Source: an uncultured Clostridia bacterium (GTDB taxonomy: Bacteria; Bacillota; Clostridia; Oscillospirales; Acutalibacteraceae). From it: a DNA stretch of 43,821 bases. The stretch covers positions 1-43,821 of the forward strand of contig CAMKOU010000002.1 in NCBI GenBank assembly GCA_946414505.1. The letters run 5' to 3'. Below the pieces are notes generated by a model. That model was given only the letters and a program-made list of their open reading frames with translations, was not told where the DNA came from and did not search any database. Positions 6,887 to 42,843 of this stretch are shown here, one piece after another (positions within the stretch are counted from its first letter, which is position 1; every line of letters begins with the position of its first letter). The translations under genes were made by a program, and so were the position numbers.

Positions 6887-7528
6887 TTGTCAAAAAAGGG
6901 GAAAGTGACTAAGCCTATGTTGAATATCATATGGAGTTGTATCGTCATCGCGTCGGTGATCGCCGCGGTTTTGCTCGGAAACGGGGACGATTTGTCCGCG
7001 GTGTTTGTTGACAGCGCCGCCGATGCGGTGTCGCTGCTGCTGCAGCTGGCAGGTATCATCGGGTTGTGGTCGGGACTGATGAAAATCGCCGCACAAAGCG
7101 GCATGAACGCGCTGTTCGCCAAGGTGTTTGCGCTGCCGCTGCGTCGGCTGTTTCCGCGTTTGGAGCGGAACAGCACCGCGTTTGAGACCATCACCATGAA
7201 CATCAGCGCCAATTTGCTGGGCTTGGGCAACACGGCGACGCCCCTGGGACTGCGCGCCATGCGCGAGCTGCGGCTGCGCAGCGCATCTGATCGCGCGAGC
7301 GATGAAATGGTGCTATTCGTCGTGATGAACACCGCCTCCCTGCAGCTGCTGCCCACCACGCTGGCGTCGCTGCGGCAAAGCTACGGCAGCGCGGCGCCGT
7401 TTGACATCCTCGTTCCCGTATGGATCAGCTCGGCAGGCGCACTGGCGGTCGCGCTTGTCATCGCGGTTGCCGGCAATCAAATCAGCGGTTCGAGCAGCAT
7501 ACGCGTTTCCGTGCCAGATACGGTTTGA
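6887..7528 (+). CDS. spmA: Spore maturation protein A
   Basis: MLNIIWSCIVIASVIAAVLLGNGDDLSAVF...NISANLLGLGNTATPLGLRAMREL; ATG at 6917 is a likely alternative start; 3' end lies in a repeat. Confidence 0.88.
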   Translation: MSKKGKVTKPMLNIIWSCIVIASVIAAVLLGNGDDLSAVFVDSAADAVSLLLQLAGIIGLWSGLMKIAAQSGMNALFAKVFALPLRRLFPRLERNSTAFETITMNISANLLGLGNTATPLGLRAMRELRLRSASDRASDEMVLFVVMNTASLQLLPTTLASLRQSYGSAAPFDILVPVWISSAGALAVALVIAVAGNQISGSSSIRVSVPDTV

Positions 7529-7560
7529 CAGGAACACGCGGGTCGGACGAACACATGGGT
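7501..7560. repeat. Inverted copy of the 1641-1700 repeat, overlapping the spmA stop
   Basis: Reverse complement ACCCATGTGTTCGTCCGACCCGCGTGTTCCTGTCAAACCGTATCTGGCACGGAAACGCGT. Confidence 0.88.
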
Positions 7561-7590
7561 TCGCCCATACATCCTAAAGGGAAAGTTTTA

Positions 7591-7903
7591 GTCTGTTGTC
7601 AGTTGTCAGCCATAGGGGAATCACCTTGCGGTCTCCCTATCCTGCCGCTTGGCGGCAGGAACTGACAGCCGCTAGGGCTGTCACTACGGCAGCACGGAAA
7701 CGTTTTTTATGCACACATTACCTTAACATCGTAGGGGAAACCCTTGCGGTTTCCCTTTCCTGCCGCTTGGCGGCAGGAACTGACAGCCGCAAGTGCTGTC
7801 ACTACAGTTATACGAAAAAGTATACTTTTTCGATTAACATGGAACTACTGACGACTGACAACTGACAACTGACGACTGACAACTGACAGCTGTCAGCTGA
7901 CGG
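7591..7903. repeat. Composite repeat: two stem-loop cores between YTGTCAG and CTGACRA heptamer arrays
   Basis: Cores TCCTGCCGCTTGGCGGCAGGAACTGACAGCCGC at about 7649 and 7769; heptamer array at 7846-7903. Confidence 0.85.
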
Positions 7904-7921
7904 ACTGAAAAGGAGAAGCTT

Positions 7922-8431
7922 ATGAATTTGATCATGCCCGTTTTTGCGGCGGTGATCGTCCTGTTTGGGCTCATACGGCGCGTACCGGTGTTTGACGCCT
8001 TCATCGCCGGTGCACGCGAGGGGCTGGTGACGCTGTATCACATCGCGCCCGCGATTTTGGGGCTGATGTTTGCCGTCAGCCTGCTGCGCGTCAGCGGCGC
8101 CACGGATGTGTTGTGCCAATGGCTGGCGCCTGCGGCACAGGCGGTGGGCTTTCCTGCCGAGGTGGTGCCGATGGCGCTGCTGCGGCCGGTTTCGGGCAGC
8201 GGCGCGACGGCGCTGCTGGTGTCGGTGCTGGAGGAGCACGGCCCCGACAGCTTTGCCGGCAGGGTGGCTTCGGTGCTGGCAGGGTCAAGCGAAACCACCT
8301 TTTTCGCCGTGACGATGTATTACGGCAGCGTCGGCGTCAAACAGATCCGCCACACCCTGCTTGCCGCCGTCGCCGCCGACCTGACCGCGATGGTGCTCAG
8401 CGCCGTGACCGTGCGGGCGTTTTTCGGCTAA
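7922..8431 (+). CDS. spmB: Spore maturation protein B
   Basis: MNLIMPVFAAVIVLFGLIRRVPVFDAFIAGAREGLVTLYHIAPAILGLMFAV...LRPVSGSGATALL...VASVLAGSSETTFFAVTMYYGSVGVKQIRHTL. Confidence 0.93.
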   Translation: MNLIMPVFAAVIVLFGLIRRVPVFDAFIAGAREGLVTLYHIAPAILGLMFAVSLLRVSGATDVLCQWLAPAAQAVGFPAEVVPMALLRPVSGSGATALLVSVLEEHGPDSFAGRVASVLAGSSETTFFAVTMYYGSVGVKQIRHTLLAAVAADLTAMVLSAVTVRAFFG

Positions 8432-8748
8432 AATCATTTTGTCATGTTTTCGATATAAAAGTCGCTTGACAGCCGAATATTACTATTTGTAAAGCGCAAT
8501 GTGGAAAATTTCTTTTTCAGAACGAAGGAGAATGCCCTCCGCATTCCCTCTTTACCCCTATATTTTGTTTTCCACCATGACAGCGCCCTATTTCGCACCG
8601 GTATTTTAACACTTTCAACAGAGTTTTCCACATCTTATTGTGGTTAAGGAAATTTACAAATTGTATAATTCCAGTGTCGGGAACATTGACCTTCCTTTTT
8701 GATTCTTTTATCGCAAAGACATTATTGTCATATTTGGGGTGATAGGCT

Positions 8749-9303
8749 TTGAACCGTAAGCTTTGCATATTAGAGCTGCTCGGCGGCGCGTTTGTCGCGG
8801 CAGGCGCCGCGTTTATGCGGCGGTTGTTCGCACTCAACAACGGGATGCTGCTCGGCATTTTATTCGGCGCCGTCAACGGCAGCGACTGGGAGCTGACCAA
8901 AACCCTGCTGCTGCCCTATCTGCTGTGGGCGCTGCTGGAGGCGCTGGTGCTGCGCCTGCGGTTTCACCGCTTTACCGTCGCCAAGACCGCCGCGCTCTAC
9001 CTGTTGGGCGTCGTCAGCCTGCTGCTGCGGCTCGGCGGCGCCGGCGGTGTGTGGGCAGACATCCTGCCCGTGGCGACGGCACTGGCAGCGTCGTATGCGC
9101 TCTACTGCTCTCCCCTGCCGCTGCGGTGGCTGTTCGCGCCCTCGCTGGTGCTGCTGTTTTTGTTTGTATCGCTGTTTGTCAGCCTGACGCCGTTTCCGCC
9201 GCGCTTGGCGTCCTTTTGCGACAGAGCGACCGGCATGTACGGCTTGCTGCCGCGGTGCTACGATTACGGCGCGTCGGCGCTCGATACGTTGAATTCTCTG
9301 TAG
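8749..9303 (+). CDS. Polytopic membrane protein, function unknown (possibly DUF6512-like)
   Basis: TTG start after GGGGTGATAG; several hydrophobic helices. Confidence 0.65.
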   Translation: MNRKLCILELLGGAFVAAGAAFMRRLFALNNGMLLGILFGAVNGSDWELTKTLLLPYLLWALLEALVLRLRFHRFTVAKTAALYLLGVVSLLLRLGGAGGVWADILPVATALAASYALYCSPLPLRWLFAPSLVLLFLFVSLFVSLTPFPPRLASFCDRATGMYGLLPRCYDYGASALDTLNSL

Positions 9304-9387
9304 AAAATCGCTTTTAATTCTATATTAGAATATCAACAAACGGCGGAATATGGTATAATAAATAGGAATATCGTTATATAAAGAGGA

Positions 9388-10146
9388 ATGGTCATGAAAG
9401 AAAACCATACAGAGCCAAAGCCCGACGTCATCGCGGGCAGAAATCCTGTCAGCGAGGCGCTTCGCAGCGGCAGACCCATCGACAAAATTTTGGTGGCGCG
9501 CGGCGAAAAAAGCGGCGCCGTGGTGGGGATCCTCGCCAAGGCGCGCGACCGGCAGATCCCCGTCAAGGAGGTCGACCGCGCCAAGCTGGACTTTCTGAGC
9601 GGCACGGCGCCCCACCAGGGGATCGCGGCGCTGGCGGCAGCCAAGGATTACTGCACCGTGGACGACATTTTCGCCTACGCCGCAGCGCGCGGCGAGCCGC
9701 CGTTTTTGGTGATTTTGGACGAGCTGGAGGATCCCCACAACCTCGGCGCGATCATCCGCACCGCCGAGTGCGCGGGCGTTCACGGCGTGATCGTTCCCAA
9801 ACGGCGCAGCGCGAGCCTCAGCTACACCGTGGGCAAGGCGAGCGCCGGCGCGGTAGAATATATGCGCGTGGCGCGCGTCACCAATATCGCCCAGCTGATC
9901 GACGACATCAAATCGCGCGGCGTGTGGGTGTACGGCGCGGACATGAACGGCACCGACTATTTGCAGTGTGATCTATCGGGTGCGTGCGCGCTGGTCATCG
10001 GCAACGAGGGCAAGGGCATTTCGCGGCTGGTGCGTGAAAAATGCGACGTCATTGTTTCGCTGCCGATGAAGGGCCGCATCAACTCGCTCAACGCCTCGGT
10101 CGCGGCGGGCATACTGATCTATCACGCGCTGACAGGCAGAAATTAG
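9388..10146 (+). CDS. rlmB: 23S rRNA (guanosine-2'-O-)-methyltransferase RlmB-like (SpoU/TrmH family)
   Basis: VIAGRNPVSEALRSGRPIDKILVARG...LDELEDPHNLGAIIRTAECAGVHGVIVPKRRSA...LVIGNEGKGISRLVREKCD...INSLNASVAAGILIY. Confidence 0.95.
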   Translation: MVMKENHTEPKPDVIAGRNPVSEALRSGRPIDKILVARGEKSGAVVGILAKARDRQIPVKEVDRAKLDFLSGTAPHQGIAALAAAKDYCTVDDIFAYAAARGEPPFLVILDELEDPHNLGAIIRTAECAGVHGVIVPKRRSASLSYTVGKASAGAVEYMRVARVTNIAQLIDDIKSRGVWVYGADMNGTDYLQCDLSGACALVIGNEGKGISRLVREKCDVIVSLPMKGRINSLNASVAAGILIYHALTGRN

Positions 10147-28719: not shown

Positions 28720-30213
28720 TCAAGCTACCTCGGAAATACTGTTGACGGCGCGGGTAACGTCGCCCTTGTTGCTGTGTCCCATCACTTCGCCGTTGAGCTT
28801 GGCGAGATATTTGTCGCCGTCGCTGATAAACTCCACCTTGTCGCTGCCGCCGTCGGCAAAGGTATAGGTGATGGTGAGCGCAGCGGTGCTGCCGCTGTCG
28901 GTTTTGGCGTCCGCAAGCGGCACCAGCGCCACATTGTTGTACATTTCGGTAAATTTGCCGATCTCGATGTCCTTGCCGCCGCTTGTCACGGTGGTCACCT
29001 CGGCGGTGGTCTCATTGCCTTTGTCGTCGGTGGTGACGGATTCCTTGGTCTCCAGCGCAAAGGTGGTGGTTTTGCCGTTCGCCGTGACCGCCATTTCGGT
29101 CAGCGCGGTCATTTTGGGGTTGCACACATACTCGCCGCACAGCTTGTCAAAGCTCGTTTGGCTCCACGCCGCCTTGCTCGCCGCAAGGGTGTACACCACG
29201 CTGCCGCCGCCGGTCATCAAACAGATCTTGCCGTCCGCGTCGGGCTTGGACGCGTGCAGCTCCACCGTGCCGTCGGGATATTCCGCCGTCAGCGTCGCAT
29301 AGGGCGTCGCCAGCCCCAGCTCCTGCAGCTGCGCGTCGGAGGGATTCACCATTTTGACCGCGTCGGCATACAAGCCGCGAATACCGCCCGTGATCAGGCT
29401 GCTTTCCACCTCGTTTGCCATCCGCGCGGCGGGCGCTGTCATACGGTAGGAAGCGGTATAATTGTCGTCGTCGTTGGGCACCAGCGTGATCGCCTTGGCA
29501 AAGCCGGCGCCGGAAATGGTGATCTCGGACGCCTGGTTGTTGTCGGTGTTGTCCGCCGCGTCGTTAACGGCCAGGCTCATCATGTCGGTCAAGCCCAAGT
29601 CAAACGCCGAAACGGTGTCGGTATCGGCGACATACACCGCGTCGCCGGTGCCGAATTTGATGTAGGTGCCCGCCTGCTTCGGCGCGTCGCTGCCGACGAT
29701 GATCACCGCCTTGGTTTTGTCCGTGTAGGTCACGGTGACGGTGGAACGCGGCTTGTCAAAGCCAAATTCCGCACCCTTGCTTTTGTCGAGCGTCGCCACC
29801 TTGGAAAAGCGGAGGCTTGCCGCCGCGCTCGCGATCTTGTCGGGCACGCCGGTTTGCAGGGCATAGTCCTCATAGCCCTTGACGGTGTACACCGTCGCTT
29901 GTCCCTCGGGGGTTTGCGACAGCACGTCGAGCGTGCCCTTGCTGTTTTCCACATGAATGCTTTGGATGTCGGCGGGATAGTATTCCATCAGCGTGCCGTA
30001 GCTGTTGTTGGCGATGTTGCCGTCCTTGTCGGTTTCCACCTGCGCCTGGTGCAGGCCGTCGCCGTCCACCGACCGCGACAGCGCCACACCCTCGTCAATG
30101 GTGGCGTTTTGCGCGTCGCTGCCGCCCTTGGGCAAAAATACCAGCAGCAGAACGACGGCAACCAGCACCGCCGCGGCAATGCCGCCTATTATCAGTCCTT
30201 TTTTCTTGTTCAT
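28720..30213 (-). CDS. DUF4340-like membrane-anchored protein
   Basis: MNKKKGLIIGGIAAAVLVAVVLLLVFLPKGG; VYTVKGYEDYALQTGVPDKIASAAASLRFSKV; follows a GldG-like gene. Start at ATG after AGGAGG. Confidence 0.78.
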   Translation of the reverse strand: MNKKKGLIIGGIAAAVLVAVVLLLVFLPKGGSDAQNATIDEGVALSRSVDGDGLHQAQVETDKDGNIANNSYGTLMEYYPADIQSIHVENSKGTLDVLSQTPEGQATVYTVKGYEDYALQTGVPDKIASAAASLRFSKVATLDKSKGAEFGFDKPRSTVTVTYTDKTKAVIIVGSDAPKQAGTYIKFGTGDAVYVADTDTVSAFDLGLTDMMSLAVNDAADNTDNNQASEITISGAGFAKAITLVPNDDDNYTASYRMTAPAARMANEVESSLITGGIRGLYADAVKMVNPSDAQLQELGLATPYATLTAEYPDGTVELHASKPDADGKICLMTGGGSVVYTLAASKAAWSQTSFDKLCGEYVCNPKMTALTEMAVTANGKTTTFALETKESVTTDDKGNETTAEVTTVTSGGKDIEIGKFTEMYNNVALVPLADAKTDSGSTAALTITYTFADGGSDKVEFISDGDKYLAKLNGEVMGHSNKGDVTRAVNSISEVA

Positions 30214-31745
30214 CAGCGGTTCCTCCTGCGCATCCACAACACGATGCCCGTCGCAAGCACCGCCGCCGGAATGACGAACATAAACAGGATCATCATCGCG
30301 TTGGAGGCGGTGGCGCTCGGTGCGCCGAGAGTGGCGTTGTCGATGGTTTTGCTCTCAATGATCACGGCGTTGTCCTCTTTGTCCGCGATCGTGTTGACCA
30401 AGGTCATAAAATATTCGGCGTTGTTGAAGCTGGGGTAATTCAGATCCGCCGACAGCAGCATCGCCTTGGAGCTGAACACCACCACGTTGGAGCTTTGCTC
30501 GGTGCCTGCCTTGACGCCCTCGGCGGCAACGGGGATCGGCTTGCCGGTGATGTTGGCTTCGGCGTCAAAGTCGTCGCCGGCGTCAAACGGCAGGATGCCC
30601 GCCTTGTCGGAGCTTTGCAGCAGCGCGTGCGCGGTGTTTTCGTCCTTGATGGTGACGCCCAGCGCGTATTCGTTGACGACAAACACATTTTGGCTGCTGA
30701 GCTTTTCGGTGTAATAGTCGGTGTAGTCGAGCAGCGACACATACGGCGTGGTGTTGTTCAGCCGGTGGTTGGGATCGGTTTCATACAGCATACCCTTGTT
30801 GAGCGCCATGCCGTAGTCGCTGAGGATCGCGTCGATGTTCGGGGTTTTGATCTCGCCCAGACGCGGATCGGCGTTGGCGACATAAATAAGGGTTTTGCCG
30901 TATTTGCCGTCGTTTTCCAGCCACTTTTGCAGCGCTGCGGCAGCTTCGTCGCTGAGGTCGCGTTCGGGCGCGAACAGCAGCACAAAACGCGCGTCCTTGT
31001 CGAGCGTGCCGGTGAGCAGCGACACCTCGTTGACCTGGTAGGCGTTGTCGGTGAGCAGCGCGGTCACACCGCCGTAGCCGTCGTCGCTGTTTTCGCCCTC
31101 GCCGGTCATCACGTCCACGATCACCTTGTTTTCGGTGGTGACGTCGAGCGCCGCCTTGACCACCGCCTGCTCAATGGTGGTGCCCGTCCACTGGTAGACG
31201 CCCATCGAGTTGAAATATTCCTCGTCGTAGGTAAAGCAATCGGTCACCGACAGTCCCTTATATTGCTTGCCGCACACCATCACGCCCATCGTATCGTTGG
31301 TTTTCCAGTTGACGTTGGGATAATCCTGCGCAAACTGCGGATTTTCGGTGGTGTCCACAAAGTCATAGGTAAATTTGCCGTTGGAGGCGGACGCCATTTT
31401 GTCGAGCAGGTTTTTCGCCTGCACAAAATGGGTGCTGACGCTTGTAAAATCCTCCTCGGAGGCAACGATGTGCAGCTTGACGTCCTTTGTCAGGCGGCTC
31501 ATGTAGTCCTTGGTGTCGTTCGACAGGGCAAACGCCTTGTTGGCGGTGAGATCCGCCTTCAGCTCGGGGAACCGATCTACGAGCAGCCCCACCACGACGT
31601 TCAGCAAAACCACGACCGCGACGCCCACGGCGGTCAAGATCACCGCCAGCGAGCCGTGCCGCATTTTGCGGGATTGCAACAGCGCTTTCGGCTTTGAGGG
31701 CTTTTTTTCCGTTTTAACGGAGGTCTTTTCGTTCTTTTCAGCCAT
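30213..31745 (-). CDS. GldG-like ABC-transporter auxiliary protein
   Basis: N- and C-terminal TM, long extracytoplasmic region beginning ELKADLTANKAFALSNDTKDYMSRLTKDVKLHIVAS; adjacent to ABC permease/ATPase. Confidence 0.82.
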   Translation of the reverse strand: MAEKNEKTSVKTEKKPSKPKALLQSRKMRHGSLAVILTAVGVAVVVLLNVVVGLLVDRFPELKADLTANKAFALSNDTKDYMSRLTKDVKLHIVASEEDFTSVSTHFVQAKNLLDKMASASNGKFTYDFVDTTENPQFAQDYPNVNWKTNDTMGVMVCGKQYKGLSVTDCFTYDEEYFNSMGVYQWTGTTIEQAVVKAALDVTTENKVIVDVMTGEGENSDDGYGGVTALLTDNAYQVNEVSLLTGTLDKDARFVLLFAPERDLSDEAAAALQKWLENDGKYGKTLIYVANADPRLGEIKTPNIDAILSDYGMALNKGMLYETDPNHRLNNTTPYVSLLDYTDYYTEKLSSQNVFVVNEYALGVTIKDENTAHALLQSSDKAGILPFDAGDDFDAEANITGKPIPVAAEGVKAGTEQSSNVVVFSSKAMLLSADLNYPSFNNAEYFMTLVNTIADKEDNAVIIESKTIDNATLGAPSATASNAMMILFMFVIPAAVLATGIVLWMRRRNR

Positions 31746-31758
31746 TGTTCACCCCTCC

Positions 31759-32463
31759 TTAGCTCCAGCGGCGTCTTTCCAGAACGCGCACGGTGAAAAA
31801 GATAAACAGCCCCGTCACGCTCAGATAGAACATCACATCCACGATACTGAGAATACCGTAGGTAAAATTCGTATAGTAATTGAGGAAATTCAGCTTTTCC
31901 AAAACCGCGGACAGCCAGTCCACGGGAACCAGGCTGATGAGATAGCCCATGGTGTCGATAAACAGACCGACCGCCATGCCGATGACGGCGGCGACCACCA
32001 TGCTCTCGGTCAGCGAGGAAATAAAGATATTGATGGCGATCATGGCAACGCCGACCAGCAAAATGCCGAGCAGCGTACACAATATCACCGTCCACTGCGG
32101 CTGCGCGAAAAAGGAGATGACCACGCCGTACACCAAAAAGATGGCGCAGCACAGGGCATACACGCAAAACGCGCCCAAAAACTTGCCCATCACGATCTCG
32201 ATCAGGCTGACGGGCGAGGTCAGCAGCGCCTGGTCGGTCTTTTGGCGCTTTTCCTCGGAAAAGGTTTTCATCGTCAGCACCGGGATGATGAACATGATGA
32301 TGTAAAACATGTTGGCGAACACATAAGACAGGCTGGCGGAGTTGTTGTAAAAGCAGTACAAATAAAAGAACATGCCGCTGAAAAAGTAATACACAGCCAG
32401 CACCACATAGGCGATGGCGGAGTTAAAGTAGCCCGACATTTCGCGCTTAAAGATAGCTCCCAT
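31759..32463 (-). CDS. ABC-2 type (GldF-like) permease
   Basis: MGAIFKREMSGYFNSAIAYVVLAVYYFFSGMFFYLY...TMKTFSEEKRQKTDQALLTSPVSLIEIVMGKFLGAF. Confidence 0.9.
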   Translation of the reverse strand: MGAIFKREMSGYFNSAIAYVVLAVYYFFSGMFFYLYCFYNNSASLSYVFANMFYIIMFIIPVLTMKTFSEEKRQKTDQALLTSPVSLIEIVMGKFLGAFCVYALCCAIFLVYGVVISFFAQPQWTVILCTLLGILLVGVAMIAINIFISSLTESMVVAAVIGMAVGLFIDTMGYLISLVPVDWLSAVLEKLNFLNYYTNFTYGILSIVDVMFYLSVTGLFIFFTVRVLERRRWS

Positions 32464-33398
32464 TACGCCTTGCCTCCTTTCGCCTTGGCGGTCAGCTTGA
32501 GGTAGAGCTCCTCCAGGCTGTCGCCGCCCGCTTTCATTTCCAAAATGGGACAGTCGATGCGCGCCATCGCGCTGAACACGGCGCGGCGGACGTCCTCGCC
32601 GGGCTTGAACTCCACGCTGAGCTGTCCCTGTGTGCCGGTGCGCTTCACCTTGAGCACGCCGGGGATCTTTTGCAGCTCCGCCGTCGCGTCTGCCAAGCTG
32701 CCGTCCACGGTCAGCAGCAGCTGTCCCTCCTGCGCGAGCACCTGTGACAGCTCGTCGGTTTTGGCGTCGGCAATGATCTTGCCGCCCGCGATGATGATGA
32801 TCCGGTCGCAGGTGGCGGAAATTTCGCTGAGCACGTGCGACGAAAAGATCACCGTATGCTTTTTGCCGAGGCTCTTGATCAGCTTGCGGATCTCGATGAT
32901 CTGCTGCGGATCCAATCCGACCGTCGGCTCGTCGAGGATGATGACCGGCGGATTGCCGAGCAGCGCCTGCGCAAAGCCGACGCGCTGGCGGTAGCCCTTG
33001 GACAGGTTTTTGATGAGCCGCTTGCCGTGCTTTTCCAGCCCCACCAAGCGCATGACCTCGTCCACATGCGCCTGCTTGGGCAGCCTGACGCGCTTGAGGT
33101 CAAACATGAATTCCAGATATTTGCGCACCGTCATGTCCGCATACAGCGGCGGCAGCTCGGGCAGGTAGCCGATTTTTTGCTTGGTTTGCTTCGGCTGCGC
33201 CAAAATTTCGCTGCCGTCCACCGTCACGGTGCCCGAGGTGGAGGAAATGTAGCCCGTGATGATGTTCATCGTGGTGGATTTTCCCGCGCCGTTCGGCCCC
33301 AAAAAGCCGAGCACCTCGCCGGTGTCTACGGTAAAGCTGACGTCGTCGAGCGCAAGCAGCTTGCCGTAGCGTTTGGTGAGATTTTTAACCTCTATCAA
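32463..33398 (-). CDS. ABC transporter ATP-binding protein (GldA-like)
   Basis: Walker A GPNGAGKST, signature LSKGYRQRVGFAQAL, Walker B VIILDEPTVGLDP; probable TTG start after TAGGAGTGATACAG. Confidence 0.95.
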   Translation of the reverse strand: MIEVKNLTKRYGKLLALDDVSFTVDTGEVLGFLGPNGAGKSTTMNIITGYISSTSGTVTVDGSEILAQPKQTKQKIGYLPELPPLYADMTVRKYLEFMFDLKRVRLPKQAHVDEVMRLVGLEKHGKRLIKNLSKGYRQRVGFAQALLGNPPVIILDEPTVGLDPQQIIEIRKLIKSLGKKHTVIFSSHVLSEISATCDRIIIIAGGKIIADAKTDELSQVLAQEGQLLLTVDGSLADATAELQKIPGVLKVKRTGTQGQLSVEFKPGEDVRRAVFSAMARIDCPILEMKAGGDSLEELYLKLTAKAKGGKA

Positions 33399-33508
33399 CT
33401 GTATCACTCCTAACAGAAACTTCTGCACGTTTTTCCAACGTATATTGTACCACAAGTAAACGGAATTTGGTAGGGTTTTTTGTAAAAATTCAGATTTTCA
33501 TCACAAAA

Positions 33509-33556: not shown

Positions 33557-35032
33557 TTATTCCAGTTCGGCAAGCTTGCGCTGCATTGCCGTGACGTCCT
33601 TGATATTAATTTTTCCGTCGCCGTTGAAGTCGTACTGCAAAAATGTTTTTTCGTCGGTCAAATCCGCCGTCAAAAACTCGCTCAGCATCCGCTGTACAGC
33701 CGTAATATCCTCCACGGTCAGTAATTCGTCACCGGTTACATCGCCGATCATAAAGTCCACCGGCTTTAACGGCGTTTCTTCTGTCGCAATCAGCCATTTT
33801 TCACATTTATCGCACTGCACGCCCTCGGTATGTCCCGTATGCATGTAAGTAGCTTCTTTGGCAGGCACATATACATAATGGTGACCCAACGCAGGAATCA
33901 CCTGCTGTTCAACTATGATTGCGCCGCACATAGAACAGTGGGAGCCCTCGGTCTTGCCTGCGGTGTCACAGGTCGGTGCCACAGCTTCGTCCTTCACAAC
34001 CGTATGCGGCACCTTGGGGATAATCTCCATTGGCACATATACCTCGCCGCAGCGGTCACAATACACGCCCAAGGTGTGTCCCTCGTGCTGACAAGTGGCT
34101 TCGGTTTCGTGGTCAATGATCGGATGATGTCCCAATGCCGGCAATTCCTCCTGCGCCATAATCATTTCGCCGCAGGAAGTGCAATACTTACTGTCGGACA
34201 AGCCGGCTTTTGTACATGTGGGCGCCCTGCCCGGCACGGTGCGGGTGTGAGTATGCAGGCATACATAATTGGCAATGGTAATGGTGTACTTCGCACCGGT
34301 CTTATTCACAAAGTCAAAGTCTCTCAGGTCGAGCTGCGCTTTAACATTGCAAAGATTAGCGGTATCGAAGGTGATATTACCGCCATCCCAAGCTGCGTCA
34401 TAGGTAACGCCGCTCTCAATAACGGGAGCATCTTCTTTGGGTGCGCCGAAGTTGTAGTTCCATGCGCCGTCGATGGCAAATTTGATCTGACGCTCGAAGC
34501 CATCGGGAACACCCTCAAAGGTGATTTCCCAAACATCCTTTTCTACCTCGTTCATCTTGTTTGCCTCGGCATCGGGAGTCCAAGATACACCGTTCAGCCA
34601 GTTGCCTTCGCCGTTACCGACCGCATAAACGTCGGTGTAGTTGAAGACTGCCTCACCAACATTTTCACCGCTAACGGTAACAATGTTGGTTTCGGGATCA
34701 TACGAAACAGTGAAGGTGCCGGGACCGGTAACTGCGAACGCAACATTGTTGCCTTTATCGTCGCCGATCCACTCGGTGTCGTTCTTAACTGCCTTCAGCT
34801 GAACAACTGCATACGCCTTGTCAGTCGTATAAGACTTGGTGTACTTGCCATCCTCGCCCTTGGTCATGGTGTTGGTATAAAGTGTGCCATGCCAAGCGAC
34901 ACCAAAGATCTCAGCATTGTCACCGGCTACGATAAGGGTCTCTTCGCTGTCGGTTTCCGCTGCCAACGCGGTTAACGGCAAACAGGTCACCGTCAGCAAA
35001 ACTGCCAACAGAACAGATAAAAACTTTTTCAT
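33557..35032 (-). CDS. Secreted dockerin-containing protein with repeated Cys-pair modules
   Basis: Signal peptide MKKFLSVLLAVLLTVTCLPLTALAAE; dockerin GDVTGDELLTVEDITAVQRMLSEF...YDFNGDGKINIKDVTAMQRKLAELE; repeats of CxxCGE...IPALGHH. Confidence 0.88.
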   Translation of the reverse strand: MKKFLSVLLAVLLTVTCLPLTALAAETDSEETLIVAGDNAEIFGVAWHGTLYTNTMTKGEDGKYTKSYTTDKAYAVVQLKAVKNDTEWIGDDKGNNVAFAVTGPGTFTVSYDPETNIVTVSGENVGEAVFNYTDVYAVGNGEGNWLNGVSWTPDAEANKMNEVEKDVWEITFEGVPDGFERQIKFAIDGAWNYNFGAPKEDAPVIESGVTYDAAWDGGNITFDTANLCNVKAQLDLRDFDFVNKTGAKYTITIANYVCLHTHTRTVPGRAPTCTKAGLSDSKYCTSCGEMIMAQEELPALGHHPIIDHETEATCQHEGHTLGVYCDRCGEVYVPMEIIPKVPHTVVKDEAVAPTCDTAGKTEGSHCSMCGAIIVEQQVIPALGHHYVYVPAKEATYMHTGHTEGVQCDKCEKWLIATEETPLKPVDFMIGDVTGDELLTVEDITAVQRMLSEFLTADLTDEKTFLQYDFNGDGKINIKDVTAMQRKLAELE

Positions 35033-35201
35033 ATAACTGCCTCCTTTGCACTTTCGAGATACTGTTTTCGCCATTTGATACTACTATTTTATCACAAAGA
35101 TTCAGTTTTTACAACCAAAAGTGAGCATTTTTTAGTAAGTTTAGCTGTATTTTTTTCACCCGGCGGGGCATACTACGAAAAAAGCAGAAAGGAGCGATCA
35201 C

Positions 35202-39209: not shown

Positions 39210-40604
39210 TTAGCAGTCTTCGTCATTATCTTCTTCTATACCTACATCACTCATTTTATTGAGAGCAGCACTATAACCACGAATAAAACGATCTAAAGCA
39301 CGCTCCATTCGTAAACGTGAGGAATACGCGCAATCTACTCGTTTATTAGGACAGCGCGAATAGGTAGTACAATTGGGTAATGCAAAGCAGTTTCTACACA
39401 TTTCCCGAGTAGGCTCGACCGAACCAAGTTGCTTCAATAAATCTGTTTCAGTGACACCTTTCCAAATATCTCCCAAGGGCTGCATTGCTTGAAAATGCTC
39501 ACAGGAATACAGCGTTCCGTCGGGAGTAATAACACGTGAATTATAAGGATTATCTGCCATGCAAAAATGGTACCGCGTGTGTTTCAACGTGAAGTGCGTT
39601 GAAACATAAAAACCTTTGGCTGTAATCATATCCATTGTTGCAATAGCCTTATCCCATATTTCATGCGTATTTTCATTTGCCTGTAAATCAAAAAGCGGCG
39701 CAATATCAAAAGATACAAGCGAAGGATTGACGATAAAGTTTTTCAAATCATCAATCATGGTCGGAACACCACCGATATTTTCATGGTCAACATTAATACG
39801 AATATGCACTCGAATACCGGCTTCATTCACCATTTTAATACGTGAGAGTACGTGCCAATAGGCAGACTGATAATTAAAGACATAATTCTTGCGCGCATTA
39901 TATTGTTCCTCCACTCCGTCAAGGGTGATTTGAATACGACGCAAATTCCAACTGTCACGCATTTTTTTAATGATTTCCTCTGTAATTAAACTGCCGTTGG
40001 AAATCATTCTGGAAACAACCTCAATGCCTTCCTCTTTTAAGCCCTTGACTATCTTGTCGATGCTTTTTTCACCCATTAACGGCTCGCCGCCAAACCAACT
40101 GAAAACAACAGGCTCTTGCGGATTACAAACACTTTTGATATACCTAATAGTCTGATCAACTATTTCATCATTCATCGAAATAAACTGAATGCCTGCTTCA
40201 TAACAATACACACATCGCGCATTACATGCGGTGGTGGGTAAGATAGTGAATGCATTACACTTATTAGAAATCATGGCGCGGCGAAGCTTACAATAATTCT
40301 CATACACCAGAGCTTCGTTTTTAGTTTCCGGAACCAAGAAACTATCTTCCGCTAATTGCTTCAAAACTGGGCTGGCAATTATTTCAGAAGCAGAAAATCT
40401 TATGTCAGGATTGATTTCAAGCGTTTCTTCATTCAATTGATTAATTTGCTTGGTAAAGTTTTGGAAAACATAATTTTTTCCATCGCAATGATGAGCAACT
40501 GCATAAATAGACCACCGATATTTCGTATCAGGATCAATTTGTTTTTTTCCAAGAACACTAATTACTATAGGGTCACCCTTATAAAAGATATTCACATTTT
40601 TCAC
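39210..40604 (-). CDS. Radical SAM/SPASM peptide maturase
   Basis: CNARCVYCYEAG (CX3CX2C); FSWFGGEPLMG; C-terminal SPASM Cys set MCRNCFALPNCTTYSRCPNKRVDC. Start is a GTG; 40595 (GTG with better SD) is an alternative. Confidence 0.9.
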   Translation of the reverse strand: MKNVNIFYKGDPIVISVLGKKQIDPDTKYRWSIYAVAHHCDGKNYVFQNFTKQINQLNEETLEINPDIRFSASEIIASPVLKQLAEDSFLVPETKNEALVYENYCKLRRAMISNKCNAFTILPTTACNARCVYCYEAGIQFISMNDEIVDQTIRYIKSVCNPQEPVVFSWFGGEPLMGEKSIDKIVKGLKEEGIEVVSRMISNGSLITEEIIKKMRDSWNLRRIQITLDGVEEQYNARKNYVFNYQSAYWHVLSRIKMVNEAGIRVHIRINVDHENIGGVPTMIDDLKNFIVNPSLVSFDIAPLFDLQANENTHEIWDKAIATMDMITAKGFYVSTHFTLKHTRYHFCMADNPYNSRVITPDGTLYSCEHFQAMQPLGDIWKGVTETDLLKQLGSVEPTREMCRNCFALPNCTTYSRCPNKRVDCAYSSRLRMERALDRFIRGYSAALNKMSDVGIEEDNDEDC

Positions 40605-40691
40605 CTACTCTTTTTTTTCAGTAGTATTATACTATATCTTTCTACAAAAAGCAACCCTTCTATATGAATATTTATCTGCTTCACCTTATAA

Positions 40692-40735
40692 AAAAACAGC
40701 TGTGCAATTCGAGTGAATTGCACAGCTGTTTTTCT
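40692..40735 (-). terminator. Strong hairpin/terminator between precursor peptide and maturase genes
   Basis: Minus strand AACAGCTGTGCAATTCACTCGAATTGCACAGCTGTTTTTTTATAAG. Confidence 0.85.
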
Positions 40736-40739
40736 TTAA

Positions 40740-40865
40740 TTACGCCTCGAAATCACAATCGAATTCCAAGCAGTCATCCGGACAGTCCATCTCACATGCG
40801 GAAGTCAAAACAACGTCCTCAGCCTGCAGCTCGACAGCCTCGATCATAGCCTTCATGTATTTCAA
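40740..40865 (-). CDS. Candidate RiPP precursor peptide, 41 aa, CX3CX3CX4C core
   Basis: TTG start 9 nt after GGAGG; (M)KYMKAMIEAVELQAEDVVLTSACEMDCPDDCLEFDCDFEA; directly upstream of the rSAM gene. Absent from the ORF track. Confidence 0.8.
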   Translation of the reverse strand: MKYMKAMIEAVELQAEDVVLTSACEMDCPDDCLEFDCDFEA

Positions 40866-40918
40866 TTCAGTGCACCTCCTTTACATAATTGTAAACACTT
40901 CATTGTTAATTACTAAAA

Positions 40919-42370: not shown

Positions 42371-42843
42371 GTTAATTGCTCCTCTTCTAAAAAGTATTTT
42401 TCCGATTTAAGGCATAAAGCCTTTCTATCTAGCACAATTATACCACAGACAAACAAATCTCGCAATTAAAAAATTGAATTATATTTGTAAAAAAATTCTG
42501 CTGGGTTTTGTCATTTTTAACGGAACAATTAGCAAGCTGCACAATTATTTTGTGTTATTATGTTAACCTTGCATAATTTATCGCATTTTGCTTTTTCGGC
42601 GTGGTATTTCACCCGAAATCACCATATCGCCCAATAAAGCTGTGCCTGCCGCGGTTTTTTGCTCTTTAGAGCCGCGCGTCAATTTCTTTTGTAAAAAAGC
42701 AGATTTATTATAGCACTTTTCTTTCAATTATGCTATACTAATTTTGTGGTATTTTTCTTCCAAATTATAATTATTTTTTAGAAATATAGTCATATTTTAA
42801 CATTTTACTATATTACAGCAACTTTATACAAGGAGAGGATCAC

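Follow-up and report, generated by a model that had tools for sequence, protein, structure and literature searches.

The DNA analysed (hereafter the window) is a stretch of 43,821 nucleotides from a rumen bacterium. Close to one end it carries three genes on the same strand, encoding a secreted protein with a cohesin-type domain, a small putative precursor peptide and a radical SAM/SPASM maturase of 464 codons with a GTG start (Table 1). The small ORF translates as (M)KYMKAMIEAVELQAEDVVLTSACEMDCPDDCLEFDCDFEA from its TTG codon, and the Shine-Dalgarno sequence AAAGGAGGTG lies 7 bases before the start. Its four cysteines all fall within the last 18 residues, with spacings X3, X3 and X4. These features had been described in a first-pass annotation, whose gene order and strand for precursor and maturase were also found correct, the measured gap between them being 135 bp instead of 136. 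The same annotation regarded the locus as a minimal RiPP locus of precursor and maturase; the two genes stood, but this extent is incomplete because the gene for the secreted cohesin-like protein is a constant third member. As had been stated, neither a transporter nor a peptidase is encoded in direct proximity to the module: genes for TatD, a GIY-YIG protein, MetG and a dockerin protein separate it from the closest ABC system (30213-33455), at a distance of about 6 kb. At 33557-35074 the window encodes a dockerin protein that bears a pullulanase X25-like domain.

Table 1. Genes and sequence signals of the module, with their positions in the window.
Feature	Position	Strand	Remarks
Promoter-like site TTGCGA-N17-TATAAT before the secreted-protein gene	42437..42465	-	Conserved in 15 loci
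Secreted cohesin-domain protein, 483 aa	40919..42370	-	Orthologues in the same 18 genomes; signal peptide by inspection
Shine-Dalgarno sequence AAAGGAGGTG of the precursor	40873..40882	-	GGAGGTG kept in 15/15 loci compared
Precursor ORF	40740..40865	-	41 codons, TTG start; leader conserved in 18/161 genus genomes
Precursor leader	40800-40865	-	
Precursor core ACEMDCPDDCLEFDCDFEA	40743..40799	-	CX2(D/E) units CEMD, CPDD, CDFE and one CLEF
Predicted intrinsic terminator in the precursor/maturase gap	40690..40734	-	Hairpin of -30 kcal/mol and T-run
Maturase promoter-like site TTGCTT-N17-TATAAT	40626..40654	-	Sequence motif
Radical SAM/SPASM maturase with N-terminal RRE-like domain	39210..40604	-	Pfam, structure model, conserved Cys

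The distribution of the module was analysed by profile searches over 161 genomes of the genus, using thresholds of E<1e-150 for the maturase and E<1e-6 for the precursor. Both were confined to exactly the same 18 genomes. The two genes were adjoining in 16 carriers and unlinked in the other two (G061 and G201), where the maturase is found on a separate contig from the precursor. That both genes are kept in these genomes argues for a link in function and not in position alone. There are about 10^23.5 ways of choosing 18 genomes from 161, a figure that is not a probability, since the carriers are related; nearly all of them belong to those genomes whose TatD is closest. For the same reason, this co-occurrence and the motif counts given below are not independent events.

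Conservation of the small ORF beside homologous maturases, on which the first-pass annotation had staked its proposal, was observed. Among the first 10 maturase orthologues, which are 43-56% identical, nine are preceded by a small ORF bearing the leader, whose consensus is KYxKA...EDVVLTS. Nucleotide differences in the leader were concentrated at third codon positions (291/255/826 for the three positions), and the start codon was TTG in 13 of the 15 orthologues read, GTG in one and ATG in another. Conservation of the leader near homologous maturases together with third-position-biased differences indicates that the ORF is more than a chance occurrence. A non-ATG start and a length of only 41 codons could be taken as signs of a spurious ORF, the enzyme then having another target, such as the secreted protein, but this explanation is extremely improbable in view of the shared 18 genomes, the conserved leader and Shine-Dalgarno sequence and the pattern of codon variation. 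The secreted protein itself was rejected as maturase substrate, as no cysteine column is common to more than 4 of 10 of its orthologues. The proposed pairing is thus strongly supported by the shared distribution, the conserved leader preceding a variable core and the CteB-like architecture of the enzyme described below, and the small ORF very probably encodes the substrate of the maturase. The pair has the attributes of a RiPP system, namely a genetic tie between a maturase and a short precursor whose leader is conserved and whose core varies. None of the precursors matched an NCBIfam model.

Assignment of the enzyme to the radical SAM/SPASM class held for the radical SAM domain (Pfam E 1.4e-16). 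The SPASM domain scored 17.9 bits in Pfam, under the cutoff of 21.5, although seven C-terminal cysteines corresponding to it showed no or almost no variation among 58 homologues. An AlphaFold2 model (pLDDT 91.8) gave the ranthipeptide synthase CteB (5wgg) as best match in the PDB, with a TM score of 0.63 and an alignment that spans the full length, N-terminal domain included; a profile search also gave a match in the PDB, whereas phmmer with the single maturase gave nothing. With its CX3CX2C motif, likewise conserved in the alignment of homologues, SPASM cysteines and modelled RRE-like N-terminal domain, the protein thus appears to be a radical SAM enzyme of the RiPP-modifying type. In the HMM check that had been proposed, run here against NCBIfam, no maturase model reached its cutoff. 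The scores were 140.4 bits for TIGR04463 (rSAM_vs_C_rich; cutoff 525), 126 for CefB (NF038107) and 117 for Clo7bot (TIGR04334), both with cutoffs within 525-600, 92.4 for the PapB model NF047865 (cutoff 340) and 50.7 for the SCIFF model TIGR03974 (cutoff 425). Relatives were recovered by alignment search of genome contigs, the window maturase as single query having given none; named ones among them are MAGs from the rumen, under the labels uncultured Ruminococcus or Clostridiales. In two genomes the maturase gene is interrupted by a frame change or stop (7301-8606 of locus L114 in G184; 7995-9297 of L118 in G183), and these are either pseudogenes or assembly errors. Locus L037 (G073:C21) contains a paralogous, split maturase, and upstream of it lies the gene of a small protein of PqqD-like type (MKIKDGYVLRKFADKYIALAAEDAADN...) that by eye is a stand-alone RRE.

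Full-length orthologues of the secreted protein were found in the same 18 genomes, encoded directly upstream of the precursor, with one partial copy at a contig end; other matches in the genus were weaker and mostly involved single domains shared with other proteins. The N-terminal domain has a cohesin fold, its nearest structure being Ruminococcus bromii Sca5 (7urp; Foldseek E 1.2e-11, TMt 0.84), and it is by fold that the protein qualifies as a cohesin. With a threshold of E<=0.1, the Pfam Cohesin model PF00963 matched four orthologues out of 10, the strongest at 6e-5; it did not match the window protein. The genome contains 48 dockerin matches, suggesting an organism of the amylosome or cellulosome type.

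The intergenic sequences were compared in search of transcription signals. The gap between the secreted-protein gene and the precursor spans 39-76 nt across loci (53 in the window) and lacks a terminator, and in some species it contains a promoter-like site. The terminator hairpin that follows the precursor occurs at the same place in 16 loci compared; Rfam matches at this position (sau-5971, mir-19, mir-2941) were rejected as far below gathering scores and are due to the long hairpin. Most orthologous loci have a site of the TTGCWT..TATRAT type before the maturase. This layout suggests that the secreted protein and the precursor are on one transcript and the maturase on another. In 15 loci the secreted-protein gene is preceded by the TTGCGA-N17-TATAAT site with conserved spacer and 5' leader; the site is single-copy in this genome, and a regulon acting through it was rejected. 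The 5' leader itself (42371-42480 of the window) is kept across 15 species (TAGATAG.TAGGCT..AGCCT..AAATCGG) and is possibly an RNA or regulator site; it matched no Rfam family.

The module is AT-rich, as had been noted, with 34-40% GC versus about 55-60% nearby. The GC3 of the window maturase (0.35) departs from the 0.75-0.81 of TatD, MetG and DUF6062 genes and is also an outlier among orthologues (mean 0.61). From this composition horizontal acquisition had been proposed, and such values are what a recent transfer could produce. However, most carriers hold the module at a single chromosomal address, in the recurrent order DUF6062 - glycosylase - secreted protein - precursor - maturase - TatD - MetG (the glycosylase is missing in the window), and distances among its copies are correlated with flanking-gene distances (Mantel r 0.54-0.75). 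Consequently, acquisition as a recent event is unsupported and appears improbable, and the outlying GC3 may reflect allele replacement within the clade. Mean pairwise identities were 53% for the maturase and 41% for the secreted protein, compared with 84% for TatD, 82% for DUF6062 and 73% for the glycosylase. Judged from these comparisons, the module has been inherited at a fixed site and evolves fast. Four relatives without the module were inspected at the TatD site; unrelated genes occupied it, and no precursor leader was found. The MetG gene adjoining the module in several loci falls into two groups within the one genus, about 57% and 86-91% identical to that of the window, likely as a result of gene replacement.

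In contrast to the leader, the cores of the 18 precursors are hypervariable in length, sequence and number of cysteines (one to five), and are mostly acidic. Positions of acidic residues relative to cysteine were assessed by shuffling within each core with cysteine positions fixed. Of the 55 cysteines, 40 had an Asp or Glu exactly three residues further on, where 18.4 were expected, and none of 4000 shuffles reached this number. Between -6 and +6, no offset other than +3 showed acid enrichment; at +4, the spacing of CX3D, acids occurred in 9 of 55 cases (14.2 expected). The result held in a non-redundant set of cores (26/39 versus 13.1 expected; 0/5000 shuffles), and Asp and Glu were equally represented at +3, with 20 each. 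The motif CX2(D/E) is not universal: in the window, CLEF is the one of four cysteine units that lacks it, and it is wholly absent from 5 of the 18 cores (G013, G073, G024, G061 and G201). The earlier idea of a crosslink between Cys and Asp was thereby refined to CX2(D/E), which the counts support, the crosslink itself being a plausible prediction.

Combined, these data are best accounted for by a three-gene radical-SAM RiPP module of ranthipeptide-like character, whose maturase would form thioethers between Cys and Asp or Glu side chains at CX2 spacing, a reading to which we assign a probability of roughly 0.6. Its basis, the pairing of precursor and maturase, is strongly favoured by their presence in the same 18 of 161 genomes, the two unlinked cases included. 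The precursor would be translated from the transcript of the secreted cohesin-domain protein, possibly with a promoter of its own in some species, and the maturase would be expressed separately, from the promoter behind the terminator, and use its RRE-like domain to bind the N-terminal ~22 residues of the precursor. Such binding is suggested by analogy with CteB, where the leader docks onto the RRE in the form of a strand (PMC8326336). The enzyme would then join each core Cys by a thioether to the acid at +3, at the beta carbon of Asp or the gamma carbon of Glu, to yield a string of small, freyrasin-like rings with one residue less per ring. We hold this type and direction of bond to be somewhat better than an even bet. 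PapB makes the same two kinds of bond on a natural CX3D substrate and in vitro accepts 0-6 intervening residues (PMC9413430), so that a CX2(D/E) preference appears chemically reasonable. Against the proposed rings stand the five cores and the CLEF unit without the motif, and the low PapB score (92 versus 340).

The same five cores would fit thioethers of the sactipeptide type, from Cys to an alpha carbon, or thioethers that involve some residue in place of the +3 acid, the acids serving solubility, recognition or helix geometry; related SPASM enzymes form alpha-carbon bonds, and CteB joins Cys to Thr (PMC8326336, PMC11002830). The sharpness of the +3 register, the equal use of Asp and Glu and the absence of enrichment at other offsets fit acceptor residues better than bulk charge, and render this alternative unlikely, if still to be reckoned with. 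Cysteine and carboxylate can also bind metal, and CX2(D/E) units might be ligands in a peptide that carries a metal or iron-sulfur cluster, or the peptide might be a scaffold on which a radical enzyme builds a small molecule, since carrier-peptide pathways exist, that of 3-thiaglutamate reportedly being one. Either role is less probable again, as hypervariable cores with one to five cysteines are ill-suited to a fixed metal site, and beside the three genes no further biosynthetic gene is conserved.

Beyond the genus, more distant maturase relatives (~30% identity) in other Clostridia are accompanied by precursors with a recognisably similar leader, ..EDVI.TS. In these precursors acids at +3 numbered 17 of 44 (10.1 expected, p about 0.009), a weaker effect that amounts to a trend; the CX2(D/E) rule may therefore be wider. 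At 9286-10034 of a Faecalibacterium prausnitzii contig (L171), two small ORFs with the related leader MEKYxKAQMEVIEFExEDVITTSG lie beside a distant maturase; no NCBIfam match was found for them. In genome G091, about 1.1-1.5 kb after the start of a distant maturase (locus L045), three tandem Cys-rich ORFs of 35-37 aa (MKFVVKPNRIEVMQVGCHGNCSNNCFAKC... type) were observed, likely another precursor family.

Concerning the fate of the product, a C39 peptidase was not found in 7 of the 8 carriers examined, two genomes 99-100% complete included, and was rejected as exporter on this ground. No exporter or leader peptidase was identified for the module; the ABC system of the window is at most a putative part of it. 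The product may work extracellularly, together with the cohesin protein, and reach the outside by a path that is not of the C39 type; export and the link with this protein are put forward tentatively, as rather less likely than not. The suggestion that it has a role at the cell surface is conjecture from the secreted partner, and signalling or competition would also suit the fast divergence of the cores. More speculatively, and with rather little likelihood, the peptides may form a new family with side-chain thioethers at CX2(D/E) and diversifying cores, whose product acts in concert with the co-transcribed cohesin protein at the surface of rumen bacteria that degrade fibre or starch, built into or regulating assemblies of the cellulosome or amylosome type.

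The working principle is known, a radical-SAM RiPP that is probably ranthipeptide-like, while novelty appears to lie in the family, the spacing and the partnership with a cohesin protein. In the literature searched, neither the leader motif nor radical-SAM precursors with CXXE/CXXD were found, and a modified peptide tied to a cohesin protein in rumen bacteria was not met. A clean genomic test defines a radical-SAM peptide family without NCBIfam model and undescribed in that literature. A specific ring size is predicted, and natural substrates with one to five cysteines are available for dissecting acceptor-residue choice. The constant company of the cohesin protein in 18 related species opens an unstudied peptide pathway to direct testing.

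Among known systems, TIGR04463, CefB and Clo7bot provide the highest-scoring models for the window enzyme, but their cutoffs lie far above its scores and precursors of the window type match no NCBIfam model. CteA/CteB (SCIFF, thermocellin; TIGR03974) shares the arrangement of RRE, radical SAM and SPASM over the full length; CteB is, however, 18% identical to the window maturase, and SCIFF peptides, of 45 residues, have six cysteines and a Cys-Thr bond (PMC11002830, PMC8326336) in place of the one to five cysteines found here. PapA/PapB (freyrasin; NF047865) resembles the module in having a leader, acidic repeated Cys-to-acid motifs, a SPASM radical-SAM maturase and several expected rings, and differs in that PapA carries CX3D instead of CX2(D/E). 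Finally, the secreted partner shares the fold of its N-terminal domain with the Ruminococcus bromii Sca5 cohesins, and is distinguished from them by a single cohesin followed by other domains and by its tie to a RiPP precursor.
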